DNA from: a virus
Virus record (IMG/VR): IMGVR_UViG_3300048927_000759
Span: 1-51,063 of that record
DNA: 51,063 bases
Reading direction: 5' to 3' (one strand)
Both the position numbers and the translations under genes were made by a program. The notes beneath the pieces were generated by a model. The model made no database searches and was not told where the DNA came from. It saw only the letters and a program-made list of their open reading frames with translations. The stretch's first letter is position 1. Each line of letters opens with the position of its first letter. This document shows, one piece after another, positions 2,424-47,904 of the stretch.

Positions 2424-3584
2424 CTACCGTTCGTCGGGGTCTTTGGCTTGAGCAAAAGCCGCTTCCGCCTTGACTCCCGACTCGGAGTCTTCAGAGGGCA
2501 TCCACCGCCCGTAGATCGTGCGGATCATGCCCCAGTCCCTGTGCCCCATCTGCTGGGCCACCCACATTGGATGTTCGCCGGCGGACAGCATCATAGATGC
2601 ATAGGTATGGCGCGTCTGATACGGCCGCCGATAGCGCACGGCAGCGCGCTTCAGTGCTGGCGTCCATAGTGTCTTCCGGATGGCCTGGTCGCCCGTCCAG
2701 CGTTCGCCAGTGCGCGGATTCTGGAAAATTTCCTTCGCTTCCAGTGTGAATTGCTTTTGCGCTTCCAGTGCCTCTCTGGCTGGACGCAACAACTTCACGC
2801 TGCGGGTGCCTGCCGCCGTTTTCGTGGTTTCTGGTTCGGCGGCCGCCTGTGTCATGGCTCGGCTGATCCGGATTTCGCCACGAGACCAGTCGATATCATT
2901 CCAATCGACGGCGACCAGCTCGGATGTTCGCAAGCCAGTCCAGAACGCGAATTGAATCAGGTTTCGTGCCTGGCCAGTGAGCGCCGATAATATCGCGGCC
3001 TGCTCGTCGGCGGAAAATGGGTCGACGTCATCGACTTTGCCAACCGTCTCTCGCCTCTGATAGGTCCATCCTGCCATCGGGTTGGCCGGAATGATCTCTT
3101 CGTCCACCGCGTCATTGAGCGCAGATCGCAAGCAGCTTTGAATATTGCGCAGGGTTTTATTCGATACGTCGAGTTCATCGAACCAGTCGCGAAAATCTCG
3201 GCGGATCAGTTGCGCCAGCAGCCGGCCTTTGAATCGCGGGATTATCCGGTGATTCACTATTTTCTCGTAGCCCTGATATGTGCTGGCTTTGAGGTGCTTC
3301 TTCTTGCGGGGAAGCCACCAATCGAGAAATCCGGTGAGGGTGTCCTGGCGCATAAGGGGTGCGAACTGAGCTGCGCGCGGTGAATCGGGAAATGTTACCG
3401 CGTAATCGAATGTGCCTTTCTCAATCGCGTCGAGAATTGCTGCACGGTGCTGCTCAGCACGTTTCAGGTTAGCGGGCGTGGGCTTGAGCTGGATGCGTTC
3501 GCGGCAACGCGTGCCGCGGTATTGGAACGTGATCTCGATGCTGCTTGCAGAGGCTGCTTTGGCGCCGCGCCCATCTCTACCCAT
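2424..3584 (-). CDS. int: Phage integrase, tyrosine recombinase
   Basis: 386 residues. Residues ~15-65 look like the short N-terminal arm-DNA-binding domain (DUF3596 type), ~80-180 the SAM-like core-binding domain, and ~185-365 the catalytic domain. Catalytic residues visible: R219 (GLRTSEL), K255, R325 (PYQTRHTYAS, with Tyr in place of the first His of HxxR, common in this subgroup), H348 (MGHRD) and nucleophile Y358 (TIYGRW). It should recombine attP with the ssrA attB. It overlaps the excisionase gene by about 120 bp and lies 1 kb from attL, as expected. Confidence 0.95.
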   Translation of the reverse strand: MGRDGRGAKAASASSIEITFQYRGTRCRERIQLKPTPANLKRAEQHRAAILDAIEKGTFDYAVTFPDSPRAAQFAPLMRQDTLTGFLDWWLPRKKKHLKASTYQGYEKIVNHRIIPRFKGRLLAQLIRRDFRDWFDELDVSNKTLRNIQSCLRSALNDAVDEEIIPANPMAGWTYQRRETVGKVDDVDPFSADEQAAILSALTGQARNLIQFAFWTGLRTSELVAVDWNDIDWSRGEIRISRAMTQAAAEPETTKTAAGTRSVKLLRPAREALEAQKQFTLEAKEIFQNPRTGERWTGDQAIRKTLWTPALKRAAVRYRRPYQTRHTYASMMLSAGEHPMWVAQQMGHRDWGMIRTIYGRWMPSEDSESGVKAEAAFAQAKDPDER

Positions 3585-5187: not shown

Positions 5188-5953
5188 CGCTGCCCCCTTG
5201 ATCGCGGGGCGGGGTTTTGAATGGCGCTCCGCAGTTGTAACAGACATCGCCAATCTTCGGGACGATCGACCGACAGCTTTGACACAGCACAGACCCTACC
5301 TCGAACGTGTTTTCCGGTATGGGGCGCGTGTTGATTGCCCCGGCCTCGCTAGTGGGGCGGGCGGCGGCTTGGAGATATTCGTCGATCATTTCGAGCGCTT
5401 CATTCACCAAATACGGGACGGCCCTTTCATGCGCCATCGTGGCGGCAGATACTTTGCCGCGAATTGCAAACAGCGCATCATCCGGCACCCCTGCCGATGT
5501 GGGGGCGGGCTTGTCTCGATATACGCTCCCGATTGCATCAGCAGCCAGATAAGCAAGCGTGCCAGCGTTATCCGGTCTGACTGCTGCTTCAGCCCAGCTT
5601 TTTACAATTGCGTGCACAACTGCATCCGCGTCCAGCCCCTCCCCGCGCACAGCAGCGGGCGGCGGGGCGGCGTTATAAGCGACACGCCAAATTTGAGCTG
5701 GCGCAACTACGCCGCTCGTGTCACGCATGTATTCATATTCGCGATCCATTTCTACGCGCATTTCTTTGGTCGGCTCGTACGGCACCAGCTTCCACCCATC
5801 CGGCAACGCCCGCGCTGCTTGCAAGCATTCATTGCTCTGCTGAATTTCAACTGGCCAGCGATTGGCTATAGCCAGTGCGAACAGTTGCGCCGGGCTATCC
5901 CAAAATATCTCGCTGCCTTGATCGTCTATTTGTGCAGTGATCGTCGCCATCAT
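5171..5953 (-). CDS. Hypothetical phage protein with C-terminal zinc ribbon
   Basis: 260 residues. A LPDGWKLVPYEPTKEM motif (residues ~50-66), widespread in phage hypothetical proteins, is followed by helical segments and a C-terminal CQSC...CYNC zinc-ribbon motif (residues ~222-241). Start and the RT stop overlap as TAATG at 5951-5955, so it is translationally coupled to the reverse transcriptase. Role unknown. Confidence 0.7.
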   Translation of the reverse strand: MMATITAQIDDQGSEIFWDSPAQLFALAIANRWPVEIQQSNECLQAARALPDGWKLVPYEPTKEMRVEMDREYEYMRDTSGVVAPAQIWRVAYNAAPPPAAVRGEGLDADAVVHAIVKSWAEAAVRPDNAGTLAYLAADAIGSVYRDKPAPTSAGVPDDALFAIRGKVSAATMAHERAVPYLVNEALEMIDEYLQAAARPTSEAGAINTRPIPENTFEVGSVLCQSCRSIVPKIGDVCYNCGAPFKTPPRDQGGSDVAQD

Positions 5954-7083
5954 TAAGCGCCTCGATAGATTTTTGTTAAGCCAATATTTACGGCTCGACC
6001 TCGCCGCAACACGATTTTCGCCAGATGTTCGCGATCGCTGCGGCTATGGCTTGCTTGTCCTAGCAAGCCGAAATAGCTGTTGGCGGTTTCGCGCATATCC
6101 TGCATCGGTACTGCGGCCGTGCGGCGCAGCGCTTGCTCGACGGTGCGGCGGCGTGTGATTCGGCGCCATGGTTTGATGATCTGTCCGACAAAATCGGCGC
6201 CGCGTGCGACTGGCTGCAGAATGGTTTTGCGTGGATTGAGCTGGGCGTGAAGCTGTTCGCGTAGCAACGTATCAATGCGTTCGCGAGCATTATTCAGCCA
6301 TTGGGGTGATTCGTGCAGCAGCAAAAAATCATCGACGTAGCGGATGTAATGTCGGCAACGCAGGCGATGTTTTACGAACTGGTCGAGCACGTCGAGATAG
6401 ACATTCGCAAAAAACTGGCTGCTGAGGTTGCCGATGGGTAGGCCGCAATGCGCCGGCTGGTTGGTCAACTGTTTATGTGCTGGCACCAGGCGCAACTGGT
6501 CTGGGCCGCCGCGCAGCTCGAAATCCTGTCGCGGGTCGTGCCATAACACCAAATCGGTCAGTGCCAGCCACCAAGTCTCAGTCACGCGCTTTGCCAGCAG
6601 CTCGCGCAGCACATGTTTGTCGATACTGACAAAAAAATTGGCGAGGTCGCATTTCAGGTAATAAATCGGCCGCGACCAGTTCTGGCTGGCGCTGCGAATT
6701 TTATTCTCCAGTCGTTTAGCTGCGTACAGAGTGCCTCGGCCGGGAATGCAGGCACAGCTGTCGGCGATGAATGACGCGTAGAAGCGCGGGGCAATTTTGT
6801 TGTACAGCAAGTGATGCACGATGCGATCGCGAAAATCTGCCGCCCACACCTCGCGCGGTTTTGGGCGCGTGACGACGAAGCAGATCGAGCGGCCGGGTTT
6901 GTAGCTGCCGTCGAGTAGCTCTTCGTAAAGTTCGTATAGGTTGCGCCCCATGTGTTGCTCGAAGGCGAGCGCGCTGGCGCTGTTGCGTTTGCTCTGCCGG
7001 CAATTGAAATAGGCTTGCAACAGATCGGAGAATAAAAAATCAGCATGGTTTGCAAGGGTAAAATCTGCGGACTGCGCGCGCAC
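5953..7083 (-). CDS. DGR reverse transcriptase
   Basis: About 376 residues from a GTG at 7083 that lies inside the template repeat; AAGGA is about 11 bases upstream. An in-frame ATG at 7122 is also inside the repeat, so the exact start is uncertain. Motifs: KCDLANFFVSID with catalytic D146, GLPIGNLSSQFFANVYLD (residues ~214-231) and YVDD at 249-252. The IGNLSSQ form, in place of the QGxxxSP of group II intron and retroviral enzymes, is diagnostic for diversity-generating retroelements. It should copy TR RNA into adenine-mutagenised cDNA. No maturase or endonuclease domain is present. Confidence 0.95.
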   Translation of the reverse strand: MRAQSADFTLANHADFLFSDLLQAYFNCRQSKRNSASALAFEQHMGRNLYELYEELLDGSYKPGRSICFVVTRPKPREVWAADFRDRIVHHLLYNKIAPRFYASFIADSCACIPGRGTLYAAKRLENKIRSASQNWSRPIYYLKCDLANFFVSIDKHVLRELLAKRVTETWWLALTDLVLWHDPRQDFELRGGPDQLRLVPAHKQLTNQPAHCGLPIGNLSSQFFANVYLDVLDQFVKHRLRCRHYIRYVDDFLLLHESPQWLNNARERIDTLLREQLHAQLNPRKTILQPVARGADFVGQIIKPWRRITRRRTVEQALRRTAAVPMQDMRETANSYFGLLGQASHSRSDREHLAKIVLRRGRAVNIGLTKIYRGA

Positions 7084-7164
7084 GAAGCTTGTTGTCCTTG
7101 TCGTTGTTGTTCTGGTTGCCATCGTCGAAGTTCTGATACCAGGCGTTGTTCGCTGAGTACTGCG
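7062..7164 (-). repeat. DGR template repeat (TR), 103 bp
   Basis: Read on the minus strand this encodes, in the target-gene frame, QYSANNAWYQNF then DDGNQNNNDKDNKLRARAV. It contains eight AAC codons, the hallmark of an adenine-rich template. It aligns without gaps to three variable repeats of the same length. The GC-rich 3' part (CTTCGTGCGCGCGCAGTCCG) is identical in all four copies. It lies between avd and the RT, overlapping the RT start, and is not followed by the hairpin that follows each variable repeat. Confidence 0.96.
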
Positions 7165-7320
7165 CAATGCCGTGCTGTTCACGTCGCCCTGCCGAAGGCT
7201 TGCGCCGATCAGCGGGGTAACTGCGCTAGACCTGCAAGGCCTGTTGCCTGCGGTTTCCGTGATGCGCTTGACCGTCGCCGGATGGACGAGGGGCACGACC
7301 AGATTTAAAATCGCACGGGC

Positions 7321-7340
7321 ATGAGCGCCGTGACGCTCAT
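7321..7340 (-). other. Hairpin at the avd 3' end / start of TR leader RNA
   Basis: ATGAGCG-TCACGG-CGCTCAT on the minus strand is a perfect 7-bp stem with 6-base loop. It overlaps the avd stop codon and begins the 172-bp non-coding leader (7165-7336) that precedes TR. Upstream RNA beside avd is known to be part of the functional template RNA in studied DGRs; a structural role here is inferred. Confidence 0.5.
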
Positions 7341-7699
7341 ACGACAGGCGCGGATGCACTTTTACTACTCCTTTTCCAGCCGTTGGCCTGCTTGCCGATC
7401 GATGCGGTGAGTTGGATCGCTGAGGCATGCTGATTGACGCCAATGAAGCCTTTGTCTTTCAGTATGCGCATCAGAAAATCGATCGTCTCGGCGCGCTCGA
7501 TGATCTCCATCAGATGTGAAGACTTGTCGCGCGCCGCGTTCGCTCGGGCAATCAGGACCAATAGCTGGCAGCACTCATCACTGATGCGCGATCCGAGGCT
7601 CTGTTTGATGTCGCGGCGAATATTCTTCGTCACGTCAATGGCGAGGCTCAGAAGGTCGTAAGCGACCTTGAATATCGGCAATTGGTGATGGGTAGCCAT
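7337..7699 (-). CDS. avd: DGR accessory variability determinant
   Basis: 120 residues, mostly helical, basic C-terminus; size, charge and the pattern LPIFKVAYDLL near the N-terminus and IGVNQHASAIQLTASIGKQ near the C-terminus fit the Avd four-helix-bundle family (related to 23S rRNA intervening-sequence proteins). Avd forms a pentamer that binds the RT and template RNA and is required for mutagenic homing. It lies between the VR1 target and TR, the usual position. Confidence 0.9.
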   Translation of the reverse strand: MATHHQLPIFKVAYDLLSLAIDVTKNIRRDIKQSLGSRISDECCQLLVLIARANAARDKSSHLMEIIERAETIDFLMRILKDKGFIGVNQHASAIQLTASIGKQANGWKRSSKSASAPVV

Positions 7700-7718
7700 G
7701 CTGAAAAAACTCGCGTAA

Positions 7719-7735
7719 AGGGCGCTGCGCGCCCT
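7719..7735 (-). other. Hairpin downstream of VR1
   Basis: AGGGCGC-TGC-GCGCCCT, 7-bp stem and 3-base loop, 28 bp beyond the VR1 end. Equivalent hairpins lie 29 and 28 bp beyond VR2 and VR3. DNA hairpin/cruciform elements just downstream of VR are known to promote target recognition in the Bordetella phage DGR. Confidence 0.75.
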
Positions 7736-7747
7736 GAAATTACTGAA

Positions 7748-8365
7748 TTATCGAATTACCGATAATCTGCGGACTGCGCGCGCACGAAGCTTGTAGTCCT
7801 TGTCGTTGATGCCCTGGCCGCCACCGCCGAAGGTCTGACACCAGGCGCTGTCCGCTGAGAACTGCGTGCTGCTCCAGTACCAGCCATCTTCGAAAAGCTC
7901 CGGCACATTGACCCAGCACAGCCGCAATTCGCGGCGCGCGGCTAGATACCAGTCGTCATGACCTTCAATTGTCAGGCTGGATGCCCACTCGGCGGCGGGG
8001 TGATCATGAGCTGAGCTGGCTAAAGCCAATGTGTTGGCGTAGCCGTCGAGATCGCTTACAGCGCCCTCTATGGATTGTCCGCGTCCGCCAAACGTTATTT
8101 CACGAGAGAACCCGTCAGGACCGGCTGCTACGATCAGGTGATGATCGGTGGCGCCTTTTTCACCACGCACGATTCCCGCATAAATTCCGCCCGCTTGCTT
8201 CCAGTATTCACCGACGGCGGGTGGTTTGGTTTTATCTGTTGCCAGCGCTGCCAGCTCGACTGTGGGCTGCTGCAAACTGTCGAGAAAATTCTGAACGATG
8301 AGATGCGGAGGTAATTTGATCTGTGCGCCGCCGTACTCAAACTCGAACATCGTTGCTGTTGCCAT
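7748..8365 (-). CDS. DGR target protein 1 (C-type-lectin/DUF1566-like)
   Basis: 205 residues from the ATG at 8365 (GGAG six bases upstream). The C-terminal half has the DUF1566/Lcl pattern: DDWYLAARRELRL, then GWYWSSTQ and RARAVRR, a C-type-lectin fold in which variable residues line a ligand-binding face. VR1 encodes residues ~167-201, including WCQTFGGGGQGIN. It has about 50 extra N-terminal residues compared with target 3. No signal peptide or membrane segment is visible, so the product should be cytoplasmic unless exported by lysis or packaged in virions. Immediately upstream of avd. Confidence 0.93.
   Translation of the reverse strand: MATATMFEFEYGGAQIKLPPHLIVQNFLDSLQQPTVELAALATDKTKPPAVGEYWKQAGGIYAGIVRGEKGATDHHLIVAAGPDGFSREITFGGRGQSIEGAVSDLDGYANTLALASSAHDHPAAEWASSLTIEGHDDWYLAARRELRLCWVNVPELFEDGWYWSSTQFSADSAWCQTFGGGGQGINDKDYKLRARAVRRLSVIR
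7764..7866 (-). repeat. DGR variable repeat 1 (VR1)
   Basis: 103 bp, no gaps against TR. Thirteen substitutions, all at adenines of the coding-strand TR (for example AAC to GAC, AGC, ACC, GGC, ATC, TAC). The last 30 coding bases are invariant. Confidence 0.96.
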
Positions 8366-8394
8366 GGTGCTCTCCAAAAAAATCGCGCGTAAAG

Positions 8395-8406
8395 GCGCTG
8401 GGCGCC
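8395..8406 (-). other. Hairpin downstream of VR2
   Basis: GGCGC-TG-GCGCC (or 4-bp stem with CTGG loop), 29 bp beyond VR2. Shorter than the VR1 and VR3 hairpins but at the same position and in the same conserved spacer. Confidence 0.65.
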
Positions 8407-8419
8407 GAAAATTACCGAA

Positions 8420-9046
8420 TTACTGAATGATCAAGAATCTGCGGACTGCGCGCGCACGAAGCTCGTGGTCCTTGCAGTGGCCGCCCTGGTAGCCATCGTC
8501 GAAGCGCTGACCCCAGGCGCCGTCCGCTGAGTACTGCGTCGAGGTCCAGTACCATGTTTCGTGGAATGCTTCGGCGCCGCCGGCTCGCAATAATTCGACG
8601 CCGGTTTGCGAGGGTTCGGTTTCGCTATAGGCGTAAGTTGCCAGAGGCAGCGCGCTAGAGTTCTCGCCACTGCGCCACGTGTAGTTTTCTTCTTCGGTCG
8701 GCTTCAGGTGGCGATAGCAGATTTCGAGTTCGTCACGGCTCGGCAGATACCAGTCTGCATAACCATCAATGGATAACCCCAGCGCCCATTGCGCAAGTTC
8801 GAGCTTTGCTTCCGCCATAGCGCGCGTATTGGCAAGACCATCACTAAAGCTGCCGGTACCGGACATCTTGGTGTAATCGCTACTCCACACTCCGGGTGCG
8901 CGGTCGCCGGCTGTGCGCGGTGAAACAACGAGGGCAAAGTGATTTTGGCCGATGCGAAAGCGGCCGGCGTAGAAGCCTCCCTGAAATTGCGTGCCTGGTT
9001 TGGTTGGTGCTGCGCTTGCAGCGACATCTAAAACGGATGCGTTCAT
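8420..9046 (-). CDS. DGR target protein 2 (C-type-lectin/DUF1566-like)
   Basis: 208 residues from an ATG at 9046 (AAAGGA six bases upstream). ADWYLPSRDELEICY and TWYWTSTQ followed by RARAVRRFLIIQ are clear DUF1566/Lcl motifs. It has an insertion of roughly 35 residues between these two motifs compared with targets 1 and 3. VR2 encodes residues ~170-204 (GAWGQRFDDGYQGGH). No export signal. It is the most diverged target from the template (17 substitutions) and is followed by the conserved spacer and target 1. Confidence 0.93.
   Translation of the reverse strand: MNASVLDVAASAAPTKPGTQFQGGFYAGRFRIGQNHFALVVSPRTAGDRAPGVWSSDYTKMSGTGSFSDGLANTRAMAEAKLELAQWALGLSIDGYADWYLPSRDELEICYRHLKPTEEENYTWRSGENSSALPLATYAYSETEPSQTGVELLRAGGAEAFHETWYWTSTQYSADGAWGQRFDDGYQGGHCKDHELRARAVRRFLIIQ
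8436..8538 (-). repeat. DGR variable repeat 2 (VR2)
   Basis: 103 bp, no gaps against TR. Seventeen substitutions: fifteen at TR adenines and two not (TAT to GGT at its first base; GAC to TGC at its first base). Confidence 0.96.
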
Positions 9047-9062
9047 GGTTCGTCCTTTGTGT

Positions 9063-9563
9063 TCAGCTTTCATAATTAGGAATAGGGTTGATCAGATCGC
9101 CGCGGCCGTTCGTCGAAACGTAGTCGCGGTAATAGACTTTGCGGGCCGGGTTTCCTGTCATGAAGCCCCAGCGGTTGCGCTTACGACCCATAATGAACAG
9201 CGTCCATACGCCGTCACGTGAAACCTGACTGATTCGATGAAATGTCTCGGCGCTGGCCGCGCGGGTATCGCCGCGACGGCGAACGCGTGTCAGGCCGAAA
9301 ACATCTTCTTCGAAGTACCATCCATGCAAAACGATCGTTCGCCAGTTCCATGGATGGGCATGCAGATAGGGGTCGGCATCTTCGCGTTTGATGTGGTGAA
9401 TGCGGATTGAAAACGGCAGTTTCCACGTGAAAGGGACCAGCCAGAAACGATGCATGTAGCCACCGATGTGGAGGTAAGGACGACGGGACGCTAGTGCAAT
9501 AAGCGCCGCGGCTATTGCCGGGTGGGCGCAAAAACGCGCAAAGAGTTGCCAAACTGTTTCCAT
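9063..9563 (-). CDS. Cupin-like phage protein
   Basis: 166 residues. RIHHIKREDADPYLHAHPWN and a following GWYFEE give the His/His...Glu pattern of a double-stranded beta-helix (cupin) metal site; a weakly hydrophobic N-terminal helix precedes it. Similar proteins occur in many phage genomes without assigned function. It ends 16 bp before target 2. Confidence 0.65.
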   Translation of the reverse strand: METVWQLFARFCAHPAIAAALIALASRRPYLHIGGYMHRFWLVPFTWKLPFSIRIHHIKREDADPYLHAHPWNWRTIVLHGWYFEEDVFGLTRVRRRGDTRAASAETFHRISQVSRDGVWTLFIMGRKRNRWGFMTGNPARKVYYRDYVSTNGRGDLINPIPNYES

Positions 9564-9827
9564 TTATCTCGCCTTATAAAGCCAAAATTTCATGTGAACC
9601 ACGCCGTTACCATCGGCGCGCATTTCATCGATCGCTGGCGTCATGTGCTGTCGCATCAGTGATCCATAATCGCAGGGTTGTTTGGTGCGAAATTCAGTTT
9701 GAAGAATCTCGCCGTTGGCGCCCTCTGCCCACAATTTCACCAACCACCGCTGCGCTCGCCGTGGCATCGGCTGATGCCATCGCGGCCGCTCGCCGTCGAT
9801 TGCGCTGTCGAAGCAGGCGATTGGCAT
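9564..9827 (-). CDS. Small hypothetical protein
   Basis: 87 residues from ATG at 9827, which overlaps the stop of the preceding peptide gene as TGATG. No family recognised; Trp- and Arg-rich. Ends directly before the cupin-like gene. Confidence 0.6.
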   Translation of the reverse strand: MPIACFDSAIDGERPRWHQPMPRRAQRWLVKLWAEGANGEILQTEFRTKQPCDYGSLMRQHMTPAIDEMRADGNGVVHMKFWLYKAR

Positions 9828-9898
9828 CAACCACGGGATACCAGCATCGAGATAATCGCCACATAGCAAAGCAGCACGAAAATGATTCCAAACAACAT
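9827..9898 (-). CDS. 23-residue membrane peptide
   Basis: MLFGIIFVLLCYVAIISMLV plus SRG is almost entirely one transmembrane helix. Its stop overlaps the next start codon (TGATG). No strong ribosome site is seen, so it could be a real small membrane protein or a leader for coupled translation. Confidence 0.4.
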   Translation of the reverse strand: MLFGIIFVLLCYVAIISMLVSRG

Positions 9899-9937
9899 AG
9901 GGCGAAGGCTGGGCTTATGATTGCGTTGCGTCATGGC

Positions 9938-10231
9938 TCAACCCGCCAGCGAGGTTTCGGTATTACGCAACGCCACATCGAGTGCGGCGCACATCACCAA
10001 ACGCTTTATGGCCGGGTCGACCGCCATCTGCGTTTCAAGCAGCTCGCAGACATGGGCAGCGGCAACGCGGGGGCATCCGTAGCGGCGCAGTTGAGCGGTG
10101 ACGAAGGGGACAAAGCGTTCGACGGTGCCGGAATAACTTTCGCCGAGCTGATCACGGATCTGATCGCGCATTGTCAGCAGGCGTATCGATTCGCGGATCT
10201 CGCGGTTGTTCTTCACTCGCTGTTGCGTCAT
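9938..10231 (-). CDS. Hypothetical protein
   Basis: 97 residues, basic N-terminus, helical. AAGGTGGAAAGCG precedes the ATG. No recognised domain; two Cys separated by 8 residues (CPRVAAAHVC) may be structural. Overlaps the upstream gene by 80 bp. Confidence 0.6.
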   Translation of the reverse strand: MTQQRVKNNREIRESIRLLTMRDQIRDQLGESYSGTVERFVPFVTAQLRRYGCPRVAAAHVCELLETQMAVDPAIKRLVMCAALDVALRNTETSLAG

Positions 10232-10367
10232 CGCTTTCCACCTTCACAAAAAGTTGATAACCAATATCCATCAGAGAGGGCCAGCGGCCTTTAGCGCGTT
10301 CCCGGGCGATAATCTCCATCGCCTCTTCGTAGTTTTTGCATGGCGTCAATCGGTGGTGCGGCGCCAT
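10152..10367 (-). CDS. Small hypothetical protein
   Basis: 71 residues from ATG 10367 (AGGA eight bases upstream). It overlaps both neighbours by about 77-80 bp in other frames, unusually long even for this operon. The C-terminal third is charged and low-complexity. No family recognised. Confidence 0.45.
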   Translation of the reverse strand: MAPHHRLTPCKNYEEAMEIIARERAKGRWPSLMDIGYQLFVKVESDDATASEEQPRDPRIDTPADNARSDP

Positions 10368-10623
10368 CAAGAATGTCCTGTATCAGTGCTCGGCCTTTTG
10401 GCTTCACGGTGGTGACCAAATAGGCGTTGTCTTTGTTGGTGGAGTCGCAGTGCCACTCACCTTGTTCGAGCGCAAAATATCCGTCGTTGATAAACACTGT
10501 TCGCGCCCAGTTGTTGGAGCCAATCGCGCCGAATTCGCGCAGTTTCTTGAATACCAGGTTTCTGCTGACGCCCATTTCCTTCGCCACCTCGGTGATCGTT
10601 GGAAACCGGCGTGGCGCTTTCAT
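10291..10623 (-). CDS. KilA-C/antirepressor C-terminal-domain-like protein
   Basis: 110 residues. PTITEVAKEMGVSRNLVFKK then LREFGAIGS...VFINDGYF...YLVTTVKPKGRALI follows the pattern of the phage antirepressor C-terminal (KilAC) DNA-binding domain, here without the usual N-terminal Bro/Ant domain. The ATG at 10623 overlaps the upstream stop as ATGA, which settles the start. It may modulate transcription of the prophage; direct evidence is lacking. Confidence 0.65.
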   Translation of the reverse strand: MKAPRRFPTITEVAKEMGVSRNLVFKKLREFGAIGSNNWARTVFINDGYFALEQGEWHCDSTNKDNAYLVTTVKPKGRALIQDILDGAAPPIDAMQKLRRGDGDYRPGTR

Positions 10624-10736
10624 CTCACGCACTCGGCGGCGTTGCGTGTGCCATTCAGGCAGGGCGTACGGTTATCCTCCGTCACCACGTAGGCGTGCGC
10701 GGCGAAGATAAGCAGCAACGCTGCCAGCGCTTTCAT
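10620..10736 (-). CDS. 38-residue secreted peptide
   Basis: MKALAALLLIFAAHAYVVTE has a Lys start, a hydrophobic core and an AHA cleavage-like site, followed by a short mature part with two Cys. It is bracketed by TGATG with the dNMP kinase and ATGA with the KilA-C-like gene, so the coupling supports translation. Function unknown. Confidence 0.55.
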   Translation of the reverse strand: MKALAALLLIFAAHAYVVTEDNRTPCLNGTRNAAECVR

Positions 10737-11326
10737 CACGCGGCCGGCCGGCGCAGCAGCTGATCGACCGCCTGCGTCACCTGCTGGTGCAGAAAATCCA
10801 CTGTTTGCGTATTGGCGATCACAAACTCGCCGTACTCTGGCGCGATGCCGCTTTCGCTGATGTGTTCGCGCACATTGATCTTGGCAACGTGGGGACTTCC
10901 GTCATTGCGCACATGCACCAGGCTGCCGTGATTGCGCACGAACTCGGCCTCGTTGGGAAAGCGCACATCGCTGATGACCACGCCCACAAATTCATGGCTG
11001 AGCGTTTCTTCGATCCACGCGAGGCGGTTGCGCACGGCGTGCACCCAGATATCCGGATGAATCAGGTTGCGGCCCCACTCGGTGCCGAGCGTTTGTAGAA
11101 CGTGGCGGGGGCTGCGATCGCAAAGCTGCTTCATCGGCTGATCTTTGACGTCGCGGTTTTCGAGCATGCCAACAAGGTTTTCGCGCGACATCGCGAGCAT
11201 TGCCGCGACCATGTCGTACAGCGGCGCCGCGAACGACAGCTCGCAAAAGTTTTCGTGATTGACCAAAAATTTGGCGATGGTCGATTTACCTGATCCGGCT
11301 GGGCCGGTGAGTCCGATAATCAGCAT
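10736..11326 (-). CDS. Deoxynucleoside monophosphate kinase
   Basis: 196 residues with a P-loop near the N-terminus (GLTGPAGSGKST, residues 5-16), an LQTLGTEWGR motif and VVISDVRFPNEAEF, all typical of phage dNMP kinases (T4 gp1-like family). These phosphorylate dNMPs to dNDPs to raise precursor pools for phage DNA synthesis. It lies in the leftward operon with the DGR; dNTP supply would also matter for reverse transcription, though a link is only inference. Confidence 0.85.
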   Translation of the reverse strand: MLIIGLTGPAGSGKSTIAKFLVNHENFCELSFAAPLYDMVAAMLAMSRENLVGMLENRDVKDQPMKQLCDRSPRHVLQTLGTEWGRNLIHPDIWVHAVRNRLAWIEETLSHEFVGVVISDVRFPNEAEFVRNHGSLVHVRNDGSPHVAKINVREHISESGIAPEYGEFVIANTQTVDFLHQQVTQAVDQLLRRPAA

Positions 11327-11505
11327 GTAGTTGCATCCTTGAGAGGTTGGTTGGCGCGGTCCAGTGCGCGTGCAAGTGCCTGCGCCTGTGGGTTCGGGCG
11401 CATCTCCAGCGAGTTGGCGTTGTGGGTAATCAGATCGCAGCCGATCGACTGCGCGAATTCAGCAATCGCGACAAATGCCGTCTCGTTGGGAATGGTGATT
11501 TGCAT
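11320..11505 (-). CDS. Small hypothetical protein
   Basis: 61 residues from ATG 11505 with GGAGG close upstream. It overlaps the kinase start by 7 bp. No family recognised. Its ribosome site belongs to the conserved spacer that follows VR3. Confidence 0.6.
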   Translation of the reverse strand: MQITIPNETAFVAIAEFAQSIGCDLITHNANSLEMRPNPQAQALARALDRANQPLKDATTC

Positions 11506-11534
11506 GACCGCCTCCAAAAAAAATTCGCGCGTAA

Positions 11535-11549
11535 CGGCGCTGCGCGCCG
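11535..11549 (-). other. Hairpin downstream of VR3
   Basis: CGGCGC-TGC-GCGCCG, perfect 6-bp stem, 28 bp beyond VR3, in the same spacer context as the hairpins after VR1 and VR2. Confidence 0.75.
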
Positions 11550-11561
11550 AAAATTACCGAA

Positions 11562-12062
11562 TTACTGAATGATCAATAATCTGCGGACTGCGCGCGCACG
11601 AAGCTCGTCGTCCTTGTCGTAGCCGTACTGGCCGCCACCGCCGAAGGTCTGACACCAGGCGTAGTCCGCTGAGTACTGCGTTGACGACCAATGCCAGTTG
11701 TCGACGATCAGGTCGGGCGCGACGAGTTTCACCAGACGCAATTCGTGGCGGGCGGGAAGATAGAAATCGTGATGGCCGCCGATCTGCAGATCGAGCAGGG
11801 CGCCGGCAAGCTCACTGGCGGCTTCTGCCATGGCGATGGTGTTGGCCTTGCCATCCCAATCGGAATTGGCCAAGGCCACTTTCGCGGAGCGTGCATGCCA
11901 CTGCACATCCTTAAACAGCGCGCGCGGATCCGTGGCGGCGATCAGGTGGTAGTCCGGCTGACCGTGCTGGCCGGGGCAGACGCCGATGTATATGCCGCCC
12001 TGTTCGGGCCATGGCTGGCCGATACGGGGGATGGCGGTGGTGGTGAGTTGGGTGGTGGTCAT
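11562..12062 (-). CDS. DGR target protein 3 (C-type-lectin/DUF1566-like)
   Basis: 166 residues; GGGAG lies just before the ATG. HDFYLPARHELRL and NWHWSSTQ followed by RARAVRRLLIIQ show the DUF1566/Lcl domain; VR3 encodes residues ~128-162 (YAWCQTFGGGGQYGY). It is the shortest target and the promoter-proximal gene of the whole leftward operon, 8 kb from the RT. No signal peptide. The EQGGIYIG region is shared with target 1 (KQAGGIYAG), so these are paralogues beyond the variable repeat. Confidence 0.93.
   Translation of the reverse strand: MTTTQLTTTAIPRIGQPWPEQGGIYIGVCPGQHGQPDYHLIAATDPRALFKDVQWHARSAKVALANSDWDGKANTIAMAEAASELAGALLDLQIGGHHDFYLPARHELRLVKLVAPDLIVDNWHWSSTQYSADYAWCQTFGGGGQYGYDKDDELRARAVRRLLIIQ
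11578..11680 (-). repeat. DGR variable repeat 3 (VR3)
   Basis: 103 bp, no gaps against TR. Fourteen substitutions, all at TR adenines. It shares the substituted block TGT CAG ACC TTC GGC followed by GGT GGC GGC with VR1. Confidence 0.96.
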
Positions 12063-12082: not shown

Positions 12083-12098
12083 AGTAACAGATTACTAA
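12083..12098. promoter_or_regulatory. Operator O1
   Basis: TAGTAA-CAGA-TTACTA, perfect 6-bp inverted repeat with 4-bp spacer. Same motif as three other sites in the prophage, two of them at the repressor/cro switch. It overlaps the likely -10 of the leftward promoter. Confidence 0.75.
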
Positions 12099-12118
12099 TC
12101 AATCGCGAGGCGGTCAAG
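12090..12118 (-). promoter_or_regulatory. Leftward operon promoter (pL-like)
   Basis: TTGACC (-35, 12118-12113 on the minus strand), 17-bp spacer, TAATCT (-10, 12095-12090), then target 3 starts at 12062. The -35 agrees well with sigma-70, the -10 is weak. Operators O1 and O2 overlap the -10 and -35. It should drive the DGR, integrase and associated genes. Confidence 0.55.
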
Positions 12119-12132
12119 TAACAAATTACTAA
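12117..12132. promoter_or_regulatory. Operator O2
   Basis: AAGTAA-CAAA-TTACTA, same inverted half-sites AGTAA/TTACT as O1, with centres 34 bp apart. It abuts the -35 of the leftward promoter. Confidence 0.75.
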
Positions 12133-12245: not shown

Positions 12246-12734
12246 ATGAAAAGACTACTCACGCTGATGCTCGCAGTTCTGGTGGCAGGCTGTGGCCACA
12301 GCGCAATCAATTATCGCCCTTCGCCCCCCGCAAATATGACTTGGGCCCGAGCTGTTTCTATCATTGAACGCGGGTTTTATGAGGATTATGGAGACCAAAA
12401 AACACAGGCAGTTCAAGTTACTGAAGAGGCTATCATTCTTTCAGACGGGAGCATTACCACCACGAGAGGTATCGGTACTGCGCTGCCTGTTTATGGGACA
12501 GCTATCGTTGCGACGAATAGCGTTGGGAAAACTGTTGCCGCGGGACAACACATCTATCTTGCAGCATTGGAGCCCAGCATTGTCGTAGAGCGTAACGGTC
12601 GTGACAATCGATTTGCCGTGATCATCAGAACAGAGCCTGGTATTACCGCGCGCCGTGTATTTTTCCGATCACAAGCCCGTGCTACAGAGTTTGCTGATGC
12701 AATCGAATATCTTCACCGATCCAGGCCGGATTAA
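12246..12734 (+). CDS. Prophage lipoprotein
   Basis: 162 residues from ATG 12246 (AAGGAT upstream). MKRLLTLMLAVLVAGCGHS is a lipoprotein signal with lipobox VAGC. The mature part has no recognised family and ends in alternating charged/hydrophobic strands. It is the only rightward gene between two leftward transcription units, converging on the repressor with a 9-bp gap, and reads more AT-rich than its neighbours: the profile of a moron expressed from the prophage and altering the host envelope (inferred). Confidence 0.75.
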   Translation: MKRLLTLMLAVLVAGCGHSAINYRPSPPANMTWARAVSIIERGFYEDYGDQKTQAVQVTEEAIILSDGSITTTRGIGTALPVYGTAIVATNSVGKTVAAGQHIYLAALEPSIVVERNGRDNRFAVIIRTEPGITARRVFFRSQARATEFADAIEYLHRSRPD

Positions 12735-12743
12735 TTTGCAGTT

Positions 12744-13103
12744 CTATTTATCTTGTTTATTGACCGTGTAGGCTGCCTCGCGCTCAGCAACCATCTCAAT
12801 GTGCTTGCGCCCGTCAGGGGATGAGCCTACGTAATTCTGGTAGATTTTGGCGATTCTGCCGCTGCCGATCAGCTCATCGGGAAGGCTGGGAATAATGAGT
12901 TGCCAGCCGGTTAACCCCCACGCGGCAGCTAATTTTTCGATGTTATCCAGGCTGGTCGCCGTGCGCTGGTTAACTACATTGTTGATCGTTTTTTGTGATA
13001 CCCCTGAAATTTTCGCAAGATCCTCCTCGCTCTGATTATGAATACTCATTAGGTGCTTGACGTTACGCGCCAGCGCTTCGCGAGGCATAAGCTTTTGTTT
13101 CAT
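12744..13103 (-). CDS. CI-like HTH repressor
   Basis: 119 residues if started at MKQKLMPREALARN. The XRE helix-turn-helix is SEEDLAKISGVSQKTINNVV. The frame is open to 13202, but that extension reads through operator O3, so the shorter start is preferred; no good ribosome site is seen for either. There is no LexA/S24 cleavage domain, so induction may depend on another factor. Divergent from cro, with shared operators; expected to silence cro and the leftward operon. Confidence 0.75.
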   Translation of the reverse strand: MKQKLMPREALARNVKHLMSIHNQSEEDLAKISGVSQKTINNVVNQRTATSLDNIEKLAAAWGLTGWQLIIPSLPDELIGSGRIAKIYQNYVGSSPDGRKHIEMVAEREAAYTVNKQDK

Positions 13104-13154
13104 TGGGTTTAGTAACCGAGTTCGTAATCTCCCGTTAATGCTATCGGAGCGTTT

Positions 13155-13170
13155 TAGTAATGTATTACTT
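13155..13170. promoter_or_regulatory. Operator O3
   Basis: TAGTAA-TGTA-TTACTT in the repressor-cro interval, overlapping the -35 of the rightward promoter by two bases. Confidence 0.75.
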
Positions 13171-13198
13171 GACTGCGCTGTGATTTTATCCATAGACT
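13169..13198 (+). promoter_or_regulatory. Rightward early promoter (pR-like)
   Basis: TTGACT at 13169-13174, 18-bp spacer, TAGACT at 13193-13198, followed by operator O4 and the cro start at 13226. Flanked by O3 and O4, as expected of a repressor-controlled early promoter. Confidence 0.6.
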
Positions 13199-13200
13199 TC

Positions 13201-13216
13201 AAGTAATCCGTTACTA
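13201..13216. promoter_or_regulatory. Operator O4
   Basis: AAGTAA-TCCG-TTACTA, ten bases before the cro start codon, centre 46 bp from O3. Together the four sites give WAGTAA-N4-TTACTW. Confidence 0.75.
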
Positions 13217-43688: not shown

Positions 43689-44101
43689 GCGCCGAGCAGA
43701 TCATCGCCGCGGCGCGCGCGCAGCTCGGCGTGCGCTTCCAGCACCAGGCGCGGGCGCCGGGCCTCGCGCTCGATTGCGCCGGACTGCTGGTGCATGTGCT
43801 CGATGTACTAGGCCTTCCGTATGTCGACGAGCGGGGCTATCCGCGCCAGCCGTACAAAGGGCTGATCAAATCCATCCTCGACGCGCAATCCTCGCTGCGC
43901 CTGCTGCCGAATAAATCCGAGGCCGCCGCGGGCGATGTGCTGCTGATGCGCCTGAAAATCGAACCGCAACACGTCGCGATTTACACCGGCAAAACGATCA
44001 TCCATTCGTATTCGCAGGTCGGCAAAGTCGTCGAGCACGACCTCACGCCCGACTGGTTGCGACTTATTACCAACGTCTACCGCATCGAGCCCGCCGCATG
44101 A
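43685..44101 (+). CDS. Tail-tip NlpC/P60-type peptidase
   Basis: 138 residues. LALDCAGLL (C31) and EPQHVAIY (H96) form the catalytic Cys-His pair of NlpC/P60 domains. It likely cuts peptidoglycan cross-links during DNA ejection. ATGA overlaps with both neighbours. Confidence 0.9.
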   Translation: MSAEQIIAAARAQLGVRFQHQARAPGLALDCAGLLVHVLDVLGLPYVDERGYPRQPYKGLIKSILDAQSSLRLLPNKSEAAAGDVLLMRLKIEPQHVAIYTGKTIIHSYSQVGKVVEHDLTPDWLRLITNVYRIEPAA

Positions 44102-47100
44102 GTCTCAGCGCAACCCTGTTCGGTCGCGATTCATTAATTTTCAAAGCGACCAATGTTCTCGGCCTAGGCATACCCGGCTTTCTCGATCGCAAGTTCGGCG
44201 TGCCCGATCCAGTAGATCCAGTAGCGAACACCGATTTCCAAACCTCCACCTACGGCGTGCCACTACCACGCCATTACGGCACCGTGCCGGCCGTCGGCAA
44301 TATTTTCTGGCTGGAAGGCGGCAAACTCAGAGCCGTCACGAAAAAGAAAAAGCAGGGTGGCAAAGGCGGCGGCGGGCAAACGGTAAAAACCATCGAATAC
44401 TTCGCCACGTTCGCCGTGGCGCTGGCCGATACCAGCAAGACAGGTCCAATCGCCGGCATACGCCGCATCTGGATCGGCCCCAATCTTTGGTACAACGCCG
44501 GCAGTAACGATCTGCAAACAATCATCGCCGGCAATCAAAACACCGGCGGCAGCCTCACGGGGCCGCTGTCGGGCATCGCTTCACTGACGAGTAAATTCGG
44601 CTTCGGTGGCGATAAATGTCGCGTTTACCTCGGCACCGATGATCAAGAGCCTGATCCACGCATGCAGGCGGACATTGGCGTTGATAACTGTCCTGCGTAT
44701 CGCAATACCGCCTACATTGTTTTTTATGATTTTCCGCTCAGTGAAAAATATGGCGGGAGCTTGCAGGCAGCGCAGGTGAAGGCGGAGTTGGTGACGGACC
44801 AGAATGGCACCGGCCTACGCCTTTACGATGTAGCCACGCAAAATTCGATAGTCTTGAACGACACGGCAACTATTGCTTCAATGTCGGGCGGAATATTCTC
44901 GTTTAGCGCAGATCCGGCCGATCCTCGTCCGCAGGCTGGTGACTTTACTAACTTTAAAAAGTATCGCTACTCGCTCACGCAGGAAAAATTCATATCAGTC
45001 GCTGACGACGACAAATCCTACACCGCGCCGAATTTAGAGACGTTCAATTATCCGATCGGAATCGCTGGCGATTGGTCCTGGTCATATCACTTCAGTAGTT
45101 CGCCAGATGCTGCTCGAATTGCCGGAAGCTCGACCGAAGGCGATTCAATAATTTTGGCGCCCTATATTGGCGAAAGCGTAATTTCTTTCGGTTCATACGT
45201 CGTCGACTCGCTATTGTATGTATTCAGGAAGCGCGTTGACGGATCGTGTTACTACGAAATTTACAATGGAAATTCCCTATCGTCGACCGGGGAAATCTTG
45301 AATTCCGATGGTACGCCGTACACCGAAGAAATTGGAAATTATACCTATCACATCGATGCGGGCGGTACACCTATAGTTGAGGTTGGCGGCCAAGCGCTAT
45401 GGATTGTTAGCGCTGTATCGCCGCGGGTAAGCGTTTTTCTATTAAGCGACAATGGCGATTTTAATTTCATCGAAGGCATAAACTTTTCATTTGGCACTAA
45501 TCAGGTTTGGGGGGCTGCGGCAGATGGCGTGCTATCGGTGGCTTACCGATCAACCATCGCTAGCTTTGTAAGGTCAGTGGTTTCCAGTTCAGTTTTGCCA
45601 GAGCTGGCCGATATTGTTACGCAAGAACTGCTTTTATCATCACTCATAGAAACTTCGGATATTGAAGCCTCCGAACTGATAGACATTGTGCGTGGATACA
45701 GCATTGCAAGTGGTTCCATTCGAAATGGTATCGCTCCTCTGCAGGGCGCTTATCCCTTCGACTTAATTCCTAGTGGCTACACGATCAAAGGTGTCCCTCG
45801 CGGACAGGATCCAGTCGCCACTATCAACCTTTCGGAGCTGGGTGCGGTTGCTGGTTACGGCATGGCTGATGTGATTCTCGATCAGCCGCGCGAGATGGAT
45901 ACACAATTACCGCGCGAGGTATTTGTCAAATACCTAGATCCCGATCGAGATTACGATACCAATGAGCAGTCTTGGGCCCGCAGCTCAACCGATTCAGTAA
46001 ACGTCGAGCGACTCACATTCAATATTTCACTTTTCGCAGACGAGGCGCGCGGCATTGCCCAAGTTATTTGCTTTGTAAGATGGCTGGAGCGGAACGATTA
46101 TTCCTTCACGCTACCTCCAATATACAGCGACATCGAGCCCGCCGATGTAATAACCATTAGCACGCCCTACGCGCAATTTTCTGTTCGATTGGCGGAGATA
46201 AATAATCGCGCCGATGGGGTGAGAGAGTGCAAAGCGAAGCCGAATGCTCCGGCGCTATATGCCGCAAATGCCGTCGGCGGTCAGGGCGTGATACCTGACG
46301 GAGAGATGACTTTCCCATCAGAGATGGTTCTTTTCTTGGCGGATATCCCCCTAATCAGGGATATCGACAACGAGCCTGGTTTCGGCGCAGCGGTGGCTGG
46401 ATATTCTGACAATTGGCCCGGTGGGTTCATTTTCGAATCTAACGACAACGAGCAGACTTATACCGACATTCAGTCGGCCAGCGCTCCGGTAACAATGGGG
46501 ACTGCACGCAATGCATTGGGCACAGATGATGGCACCAATACTGACTTCGTCGGCGCATTACAAATTGATCTCATTGCTGGATCTTTGGAGTCCATTACAT
46601 CAGATCAGTTTTACACCAGCTTGCAATGGTGTGCTTATGGCGATGATCAGCGATGGGAGTTAATTCGGTTTCAAAATGCAGCTATTCAACTAGACGGCAG
46701 CTATATATTGACTACGCTCGCGCGGGGTTGTCGTGGTACTGAATGGGCGACCGGACTGCACCTCGTAGGGGATAAATTTATCTTTCTCGATGATGCAGAT
46801 ATGCTTTTCATCGGTTCTTCTACAGCATCCATCGGTATTCAAAAATATTACAAAGCAGCTACTTTTGGGCGAACTATCGACGAAGTATCTTCTCAGTCGT
46901 TCACGTATCGAGGCGTGAATCTCAAGCCGTTGAGCCCTGTGTATTTAACAGCATCCAATGTCGGTGGCGACTGGTCGGTAGACGCTTCAAGAAGAAGTCG
47001 ACTCTCAAGCAGTTGGTGGACATCGGGTGTAGAGCCTCCTCTTGGAGAGGGTCATGAGCTGTATGAAATGGATATTCTGAATGGAGGGGTTGTTGTAAGG

Positions 47101-47904
47101 ACTATTCAATCATCGACGCTACCGATCCCATATAACGCTTCACAGCAAGCGGAGGATTTTGGGTCAATAGTCAGCTCGCTGGAGGTGAATCTTTATCAGA
47201 TTAGCGATATCGTTGGTCGTGGTTATCCGGCAAATAAAACCTTTTCGACCACCGTATCCAATCTGACTTATCTTTTGCTGCGGATGAATGGCGCGAACGC
47301 ATCCACAACATTCACCGATTCTTCACCTTATGCCCGAACTGCAACTGCTTCAGGCAATGCCCAGATAACAACCGCAGAATATTATTGGGGCGGCTCAAGT
47401 GGCGCGTTTGATGGAACAGGTGATTATCTCACCATTGCGCATAATGCCGTTTTTCATCCGTCCGGGGCGTTCACTATCGCAGTAATGCTTAGACCTCTAA
47501 TACTTAATTCTACGAAGACGATTGTAAGTAAAAGGGCAACAGGCACTCCAACAATCGGTTGGTCCTTTTATACGGACACCGGCGGGAAGCTGGGATTTAT
47601 TGCTTGGGATGGCTCTGGCAATACTGTCGTGACCATGCTGAGCACAGATGCGCTGGTCAACGGTTCTTGGCAGCATGTTGCAGTGAGTAGAGACGCTGGT
47701 GGTGTCTGGAGGTTATTCGTACGCGGCAATAAGCAGGCGCAAATTGCTGAAAGCGCTCCAATAGGGTCGAATTCACAATCTGTATTGGTTGGTCGCGATC
47801 CTACGACAGCCGCCCGTGATTTTAATGGGAACATGAATGGATTAATTATTATTGGTGCGACGCTTTACACCGAAGACTTCATTCCGCCGGTCGCTCCTTA
47901 TTGA
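44098..47904 (+). CDS. Tail-tip host-specificity protein (J-like) with C-terminal LamG domain
   Basis: 1268 residues. The first ~220 are strongly conserved in style (YGVPLPRHYGTVPAVGNIFW, GKGGGGQ, KTIEYFATFAVALADT), typical of GTA gp15/J-type tail-tip proteins. The centre is beta-rich and more AT-rich. Residues ~1055-1268 form a concanavalin/LamG-like domain: FDGTGDYLTIAHN, SWQHVAVSRDAGG, FRGN-type strand. The C-terminus should bind the receptor; there is no DGR variable repeat here. Confidence 0.9.
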   Translation: MSLSATLFGRDSLIFKATNVLGLGIPGFLDRKFGVPDPVDPVANTDFQTSTYGVPLPRHYGTVPAVGNIFWLEGGKLRAVTKKKKQGGKGGGGQTVKTIEYFATFAVALADTSKTGPIAGIRRIWIGPNLWYNAGSNDLQTIIAGNQNTGGSLTGPLSGIASLTSKFGFGGDKCRVYLGTDDQEPDPRMQADIGVDNCPAYRNTAYIVFYDFPLSEKYGGSLQAAQVKAELVTDQNGTGLRLYDVATQNSIVLNDTATIASMSGGIFSFSADPADPRPQAGDFTNFKKYRYSLTQEKFISVADDDKSYTAPNLETFNYPIGIAGDWSWSYHFSSSPDAARIAGSSTEGDSIILAPYIGESVISFGSYVVDSLLYVFRKRVDGSCYYEIYNGNSLSSTGEILNSDGTPYTEEIGNYTYHIDAGGTPIVEVGGQALWIVSAVSPRVSVFLLSDNGDFNFIEGINFSFGTNQVWGAAADGVLSVAYRSTIASFVRSVVSSSVLPELADIVTQELLLSSLIETSDIEASELIDIVRGYSIASGSIRNGIAPLQGAYPFDLIPSGYTIKGVPRGQDPVATINLSELGAVAGYGMADVILDQPREMDTQLPREVFVKYLDPDRDYDTNEQSWARSSTDSVNVERLTFNISLFADEARGIAQVICFVRWLERNDYSFTLPPIYSDIEPADVITISTPYAQFSVRLAEINNRADGVRECKAKPNAPALYAANAVGGQGVIPDGEMTFPSEMVLFLADIPLIRDIDNEPGFGAAVAGYSDNWPGGFIFESNDNEQTYTDIQSASAPVTMGTARNALGTDDGTNTDFVGALQIDLIAGSLESITSDQFYTSLQWCAYGDDQRWELIRFQNAAIQLDGSYILTTLARGCRGTEWATGLHLVGDKFIFLDDADMLFIGSSTASIGIQKYYKAATFGRTIDEVSSQSFTYRGVNLKPLSPVYLTASNVGGDWSVDASRRSRLSSSWWTSGVEPPLGEGHELYEMDILNGGVVVRTIQSSTLPIPYNASQQAEDFGSIVSSLEVNLYQISDIVGRGYPANKTFSTTVSNLTYLLLRMNGANASTTFTDSSPYARTATASGNAQITTAEYYWGGSSGAFDGTGDYLTIAHNAVFHPSGAFTIAVMLRPLILNSTKTIVSKRATGTPTIGWSFYTDTGGKLGFIAWDGSGNTVVTMLSTDALVNGSWQHVAVSRDAGGVWRLFVRGNKQAQIAESAPIGSNSQSVLVGRDPTTAARDFNGNMNGLIIIGATLYTEDFIPPVAPY

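Follow-up and report, generated by a model that had tools for sequence, protein, structure and literature searches.

A diversity-generating retroelement with three lectin targets and an RT-15 RNA 5' of its template repeat in a temperate prophage

On the leftward arm of a prophage, one template repeat (TR) is accompanied by three variable repeats (VRs) at the 3' ends of three genes. The window, i.e., the whole stretch of 51,063 nucleotides analysed here (IMG/VR record IMGVR_UViG_3300048927_000759), thereby raises the question of whether a single diversity-generating retroelement (DGR) would rewrite all three genes, what their products might do, and how the RNA of such a cassette is organised. 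A sequence-only reading had described the DGR as complete, with a single TR serving three targets in a leftward prophage operon, and this proved correct: the reverse transcriptase (RT), the accessory protein Avd, the TR and the VRs were all found, as were the att sites. We are highly confident that this is a bona fide DGR of a temperate tailed prophage at ssrA, transcribed early and leftward, in which RT-Avd adenine mutagenesis would rewrite the 3' ends of three lectin genes.

The cassette within its prophage

The features on which the argument rests are as follows.

1416-1438, no strand assigned: attL core TGGAGGCGGGGGGAGTTGAACCC, identical to 48398-48420
2424-3584, minus strand: integrase (PHROG 1 integrase, 8.2e-64), at the far end of the leftward arm carrying the DGR
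5953-7050, minus strand: DGR reverse transcriptase (PHROG 1423 'Reverse transcriptase', 5.5e-113; RVT_1, 1.5e-13)
7062-7164, minus strand: TR, 103 nt with 33 adenines (TR/VR alignment)
7163-7353, minus strand: RT-15 structured RNA (Rfam RF03018, covariance model), directly 5' of the TR
7337-7699, minus strand: Avd accessory protein, 120 aa (Pfam bAvd PF22296, 5.2e-16; PHROG 3206 (Avd), 5.2e-29)
7700-7763, minus strand: hairpin GGGCGCGCAGCGCCC downstream of VR1 (folding)
7748-8365, minus strand: target 1 (T1), 205 aa, Lcl_C/DUF1566 (Pfam and PHROG 4245)
7764-7866, minus strand: VR1, 103 nt, gapless; 13 substitutions, 13 of 13 at TR adenines
8420-9073, minus strand: target 2 (T2), 217 aa, Lcl_C/DUF1566 (PF07603, 1.4e-9, over the cut-off)
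8436-8538, minus strand: VR2, 103 nt, gapless; 17 substitutions, 15 at adenines and 2 elsewhere
11562-12062, minus strand: target 3 (T3), 166 aa, Lcl_C/DUF1566 (Pfam and PHROG 4245), leading the leftward operon
11578-11680, minus strand: VR3, 103 nt, gapless; 14 substitutions, 14 of 14 at TR adenines
12083-12096 and 12117-12130, no strand assigned: two operator-like palindromes AGTAANNNNTTACT upstream of T3
12744-13202, minus strand: HTH repressor (PHROG transcriptional regulator/repressor families, best 4.5e-7)
13156-13169 and 13202-13215, no strand assigned: two more operator palindromes, around the start of the repressor gene
48398-48420, no strand assigned: att core at the right end, identical to 1416-1438

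The two att cores delimit a prophage at 1416-48420. Integrated at the tmRNA gene (ssrA), it is that of a temperate tailed phage and is complete in both att sites and phage modules. Between T3 and the T2/T1 pair lie genes with profile matches to dNMP kinase, KilA-C and a cupin-type cysteine dioxygenase, the identities that the earlier reading had assigned to them. With at most one mismatch, the operator-like palindrome occurs only four times in the window against 0.29 copies expected, and all four flank the region of the repressor and the operon start. The motif is absent from the nearest relatives (L002, L003 and L082), and the operator is therefore specific to this prophage. Because a sigma-70 consensus scan performed no better than shuffles (6 promoter-like sites against 4.6, none listed upstream of T3), we place the promoter from the operators only.

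The RT carries the motifs GLPIGNLSSQ and YVDD, so that the IGNLSSQ and YVDD noticed earlier are both present. Affinity to non-DGR enzymes, which the first reading had raised as a possible objection, was checked against PDB sequences: the best match is 8ub7 (4e-36), whereas the next ones, group II and other RTs, reach only about 1e-8. The depositors of 8ub7 named it 'Reverse transcriptase'; we take it to be the BPP-1 DGR RT. A retron, a group II element and a DRT system were ruled out, as the corresponding NCBIfam RT models all scored far below their cut-offs. The enzyme is thus DGR-type as judged by sequence and profile searches. Its reading frame, which ends at 5953, stays open upstream to 7443 and encloses the whole TR, and the conserved RT motifs begin near 7020. 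In all 105 related loci compared, the RT frame is likewise continuous into the TR, and translation of the RT probably starts within the 3' part of the TR.

The Avd assignment is upheld by the Pfam and PHROG matches listed above; the NCBIfam model DivGenRetAVD gave 1.8e-13 and 50.7 bits, under its 80-bit cut-off, and PDB sequences gave no match. A fusion of Avd and RT by frameshift was considered and rejected: although the RT frame of this prophage runs open into avd, an in-frame stop falls within the TR in 44 of 137 related loci.

Alignment agrees with the earlier description of one 103-bp TR and three gapless 103-bp VRs. Pooled over the three VRs, 42 of the 44 differences from the TR fall on TR adenines, and the non-adenine positions are matched at 70/70 in VR1, 68/70 in VR2 and 70/70 in VR3; the two exceptions are T27G and G63T in VR2, VR1 and VR3 having no non-adenine change. 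The best match in a shuffled-sequence control was 54%, and a search of the TR against the whole window returned no fourth VR. Folding places counterparts of the VR1 hairpin after VR2 (8372-8435) and VR3 (11514-11577) and none after the TR.

These elements suggest the following course of events. A leftward early transcript starting beside the repressor, and presumably under its control, would comprise T3, several early genes, T2, T1, avd, RT-15, the TR and the RT. In reverse transcribing the TR RNA, the RT-Avd complex would make errors opposite adenines, and the cDNA so made would take the place of the VR at the 3' end of T1, T2 or T3, with the IMH-like 3' end common to the repeats and the downstream hairpin as guides. 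The resulting mutations would land in the C-terminal segment of three paralogous Lcl_C/DUF1566 C-type-lectin proteins.

Possible roles of the three target proteins

Each target, a protein of 166-217 aa, consists of a lone Lcl_C/DUF1566 C-type-lectin domain (an internal ATG at 9046 could also serve as the start of T2). All three match PHROG 4245 and, in keeping with their first description as DUF1566/C-type-lectin-like, the Lcl_C/DUF1566 family PF07603, T1 and T3 at E values of about 3e-7, just under the Pfam cut-off that T2 exceeds. A search of T2 against PDB sequences gave no match. Structure prediction, which the earlier reading had recommended, yielded AlphaFold2 models with pLDDT 92.9 for T2 and 86.5 for T3; the best PDB fold match of both is 8q4e, the C-terminal domain of Legionella Lcl, and T2 and T3 are accordingly C-type-lectin-like in their predicted fold. 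The mutations fall in a C-terminal segment that presumably faces the ligand, and the targets are most likely binders of host-surface ligands; the term 'receptor-binding protein' is one that we infer from fold and homologues.

We lean slightly towards the view that the targets are virion receptor-binding proteins, like Mtd in BPP-1, and that the cassette widens host range. This would agree with the Lcl_C fold, which the Legionella adhesin Lcl also has, and with matches of the domain in a viral structure library, namely in a tail fibre protein, in S74-peptidase and collagen-repeat proteins, and in a 'virion structural protein' of phage 201phi2-1. A homologue also resides in the tail/lysis module of phage PMBT3, and Roux et al. 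(PMC8144416) assign phage DGR targets mostly to the tail proteins. Gene position, however, argues against a virion role: in this prophage and in four of four isolated relatives the targets sit on the early arm, in the repressor-integrase interval and on the strand opposite the structural genes. They are, moreover, single-domain proteins in which no virion-attachment (tail-attachment) domain was recognised.

The same conserved early-arm position lends weight to another explanation, to which we give somewhat less than an even chance: the targets may be early proteins outside the virion, such as binders that serve surface exclusion, host takeover or anti-defence, and be diversified from within the early operon. 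The first gene past the repressor operators is T3, and an orphan homologue lacking an RT adjoins cI in the D3-like phage PMG1. Against this stand the related domains in tail-fibre-like proteins; inspection of the targets by eye, moreover, showed neither an evident signal peptide nor a membrane anchor, and no functional partner was identified.

Multiple targets and diversification among relatives

The sequence-only reading had called three targets in one phage uncommon, which comparison does not support: at least two VRs are present in 142 of 161 related loci of the RT clade and at least three in 40 of 161. A DGR of this clade normally has at least two targets, and the three-target layout is common among relatives. 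In published surveys, multiple VRs occur in about one-seventh (PMC3521204) or in 28.6% (PMC6642488) of DGRs, and DUF1566 is the commonest target domain. Nor is the suggestion supported that the arrangement and its targets may be undescribed, given these surveys and the three VRs on one TR in both Pseudomonas phage Cruim01 and Burkholderia phage Magia. Their distal targets lie 9.1 kb and 7.1 kb away, respectively, near the repressor, and in the Magia record two lectin-fold proteins already bear the annotation 'possible DGR targets'. The gene order of the cassette is common to the isolated phages Cruim01, Haboob, Magia and QDWS. The Magia and Cruim01 DGRs resemble the present one in RT (65-69% identical), in the place of RT-15, in three VRs per TR and in the early arm; they differ in intervening genes and VR contents, and the Magia repeats measure about 90 nt.

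VR diversity between siblings, whose absence the earlier reading would have taken as a refutation, was seen in clade relatives. L077 and L105 differ at 19 VR positions, all at TR adenines, with 0 non-adenine differences, 0 in the TR and 0 in 3017 flanking columns; L077 and L078 differ at 32 positions at TR adenines and at 0 non-adenine positions. By such comparison, DGR activity is visible in these close relatives. The searches of IMG/VR, GTDB genomes and INPHARED returned no close sibling of this prophage, the best RT identity being 74%. The present DGR is complete and probably working. That it is an inactive relic with three frozen VRs in a decaying prophage is very improbable: although no sibling was found to show turnover, VR2 has its two non-adenine changes, and VR1 and VR3 have an unusually long identical tract in common, nothing in the cassette is broken (RT, Avd, RT-15, TR and every target ORF), the prophage keeps a full set of att sites and phage modules, hardly any substitution strays from TR adenines, and relatives are active.

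RT-15 5' of the TR and a proposed RNA architecture unlike that of BPP-1

The less expected part of the cassette is RT-15, which lies 5' of the TR, on the opposite side from the BPP-1 RNA. Its match is full-length (165.1 bits, with the gathering score at 82, and an E value of 6.6e-40), 27 of 45 base pairs have compensatory changes, and all nine related loci (9/9) and all four isolated phages (4/4) have it at the same position. The sequence-only reading made no mention of it. Rfam files RF03018 apart from RF03022 (Phage_DGR), and the present comparison shows it to be regularly placed immediately 5' of a DGR TR. No published link between RT-15 and DGRs turned up in the literature searched, which was limited in reach, and this placement is thus only possibly new. 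RF03022, the BPP-1-type DGR RNA, was absent from the window and from all 13 related loci and phages scanned, whereas it was found in the BPP-1 positive control; a conserved structure 3' of the TR was rejected as well, since the comparison gave 4-6 weak pairs, at most one of them compensatory.

The BPP-1 DGR (avd-TR-brt, target mtd) is alike in its RT, Avd and TR, in a C-type-lectin target gene that carries its VR at the 3' end, in adenine-specific mutagenesis and in a hairpin after the VR (compare the post-IMH stem-loop of BPP-1 targets). It differs in having one target, adjoining tail genes, where three are present here; in a TR that abuts avd, where here RT-15 lies between the two; and in a 144-nt spacer before brt that holds RF03022, where here the RT frame enters the TR 3' end and no spacer is present. 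DiGReF 'group 3' and multi-VR DGRs likewise have a TR that overlaps the RT ORF at its 5' end, and each DGR has 2-4 VRs, which lie in paralogous target ORFs (PMC3521204); the part of that survey considered here gives no RNA element or immunity-region context.

We tentatively propose, at close to but below even chances, that this DGR clade has an RNA architecture unlike that of BPP-1. RT-15, 5' of the TR, would recruit RT-Avd or stop the cDNA; the BPP-1-type priming spacer would be missing because the RT would be coded from a start inside the 3' end of the TR, and priming would therefore occur from elsewhere or inside the RT coding sequence. The lectins would be made from a repressor-controlled early operon and not with the tail genes.

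As a multi-target DGR, this element is one more example of a frequent arrangement. Whether lectin targets encoded in an early operon are present in virions is a testable question. The position of RF03022 3' of the TR in BPP-1 versus RT-15 5' of the TR in this clade likewise offers a testable contrast in DGR RNA design, and since the isolated phages Cruim01, Haboob, Magia and QDWS carry the RT-15 design, cDNA start and stop could be tested in DGRs that are not of the BPP-1 type.

Repeats, cassette proteins and activity

The three-target DGR is real and complete. The sequence-only reading had described one TR and three gapless 103-nt VRs at the 3' ends of the target genes, and this is borne out by the TR/VR alignment:

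7062-7164, minus strand: TR, 103 nt, 33 adenine positions
7764-7866, minus strand: VR1, 103 nt, gapless; matches the TR at 70/70 non-adenine positions, differs at 13/33 adenine positions
8436-8538, minus strand: VR2, 103 nt, gapless; matches at 68/70, differs at 15/33
11578-11680, minus strand: VR3, 103 nt, gapless; matches at 70/70, differs at 14/33

The top score of a shuffled control reached 54% of non-adenine positions, and the TR/VR search of the window found no further VRs. The reading frame is identical in all three VRs, each at the 3' end of its ORF; in this frame the TR reads QYSANNAWYQNFDDGNQNNNDKDNKLRARAVRR, with 20 variable codons. A GC-rich hairpin lies 3' of every VR and is absent after the TR. 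In VR2, each of the two non-adenine changes (T27G, G63T) shares a codon with a mutated adenine and lies immediately 5' of it. VR1 and VR3 agree at eight consecutive TR-adenine positions, six of them mutated alike (WCQTFGGGGQ); this tract is the longest among 231 VR pairs (runner-up four; null about 3e-5 per pair), and it could result from gene conversion between the targets or from parallel selection.

The RT has DGR-type matches in PHROG, Pfam and PDB, and Avd matches bAvd, PHROG Avd and, with a score below the curated cut-off, the NCBIfam DGR Avd model. The target proteins T1, T2 and T3, encoded by the genes carrying VR1, VR2 and VR3, are all sequence-related (T1 and T3 at 49% identity) and belong by profile matches to Lcl_C/DUF1566 and PHROG 4245. 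AlphaFold2 models of T2 and T3 (pLDDT 92.9 and 86.5) have as top PDB match 8q4e, the C-terminal domain of the Legionella adhesin Lcl, followed in the fold search by C-type-lectin-like proteins with weak scores; in a viral structure library the target domain recurs in tail-fibre-like proteins, phage D3 and a 201phi2-1 virion protein.

VR diversity between sibling prophages, whose absence would have counted against the sequence-only reading, was tested in relatives and is present. The related loci L077 and L105 are identical in the TR and in 3017 non-VR columns and carry 19 VR differences, all at TR adenines. L078, a second prophage in the genome record of L077, differs from it at 32 VR positions, again TR adenines only. 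The TR-adenine excess recurs in less close pairs, and VR change is absent in several same-site pairs. These comparisons show, at sequence level, an active clade. For the window's own prophage, IMG/VR, GTDB genomes and INPHARED yielded no close sibling; its DGR is probably active.

Number of targets among relatives

RT searches gave 160 related loci, whose named hosts are mostly Pseudomonas and Burkholderiales carrying them as prophages. Window included, the TR/VR detector counted no VR in four loci, one in 15, two in 102, three in 35 and four in five; these counts contain about ten duplicate loci, and VR numbers are minimum values for loci with truncated flanks. In the isolated phages with related DGRs, the VRs lie 0.7, 1.4 and 9.1 kb away from the TR in Cruim01 and 0.6, 1.1 and 7.1 kb away in Magia, the Magia record already naming two possible DGR targets, and Haboob and QDWS have two VRs each. 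Multiple VRs occur in about 1/7 of DGRs according to one survey (PMC3521204) and in 28.6% in another, where DUF1566 is the commonest target domain (PMC6642488); two targets are reported in ~13% (PMC10743442). Given these counts in relatives, isolated phages and surveys, the three-target arrangement is ordinary within its clade, and its earlier description as uncommon is not supported: multi-VR loci prevail among the 161.

Target relatives also occur with no RT annotated nearby, in PMG1 (L164:5857-6345), Medea1 (L165:5319-6627) and PMBT3 (L166:6058-6570); in Medea1, two adjoining DUF1566 genes retain a short A-biased repeat pair.

Prophage setting and proposed control

RT, Avd, repeats and prophage bounds were all found, in agreement with the proposed complete DGR in a prophage leftward operon. 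The bounds are:

1416-1438 and 48398-48420: 23-bp att core, the latter copy within the 3' end of a tmRNA gene

The prophage is complete: it has genes for integrase, primase, terminase, portal, capsid, tape measure and tail, and outside it there is a sodium-transporter gene of host type. The large tail protein encoded at 44098-47904 is similar to the 'megatron' baseplate protein of GTAs (NCBIfam E 4.6e-103, under the cut-off).

The leftward arm extends from repressor to integrase, and T3 is its first gene. Exactly four copies of AGTAANNNNTTACT occur in the window against 0.29 expected, one pair 21-68 bp upstream of T3 and the other where the repressor gene starts. In the simplest reading the repressor would control both sites, and the DGR operon would be turned on with the lytic programme. 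The nearest relatives lack the motif, as expected if repressor specificity differs phage by phage. Beside the repressor, on the strand opposite the DGR operon, lies a small lipoprotein-like gene (12247-12734, plus strand; MKRLLTLMLAVLVAGCG...) with no family match in PHROG and NCBIfam profile searches, its product being a candidate lysogenic-conversion or superinfection-exclusion protein.

RT-15 RNA and the TR-RT junction

The TR is flanked by a structured RNA:

7353-7163, minus strand: RT-15 RNA (Rfam RF03018 match), ending at the TR start

In Rfam scans this position is kept in all nine relatives and all four isolated phages, and compensatory changes affect 27/45 pairs across 33 loci. BPP-1, the Bordetella phage with the reference DGR, differs: scanned likewise, it has Phage_DGR (RF03022) 3' of the TR, inside a 144-nt spacer before brt, and its avd adjoins the TR directly. 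There, RT-Avd recruitment and cDNA priming depend on the spacer, and the stop on a motif in avd (PMC12875486). RT-15 may, by analogy, serve RT-Avd binding or the cDNA stop at the TR border.

The present clade has no BPP-1-like spacer between TR and RT: the interval separating the 3' end of the TR and the conserved RT motif AYFNCR, in eight lengths of 49-76 nt, is congruent modulo 3 and the RT frame is open throughout it in 105/105 loci. No covarying structure was found in the 120-180 nt examined 3' of the TR. An in-frame ATG lies inside the TR in 108/137 loci, and in 19 the RT start is forced inside it, unless translation begins at a rare start codon; in many relatives the TR is coding in the RT reading frame (MATRTTTTRTT... 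peptide). From these frames, the TR may be template and RT N-terminus at once, and one survey reports a DGR group whose TR overlaps the RT ORF (PMC3521204). The main interest of this DGR lies in an RNA layout mirrored with respect to BPP-1, together with its early-operon lectin targets, both of which are common to isolated phages too.
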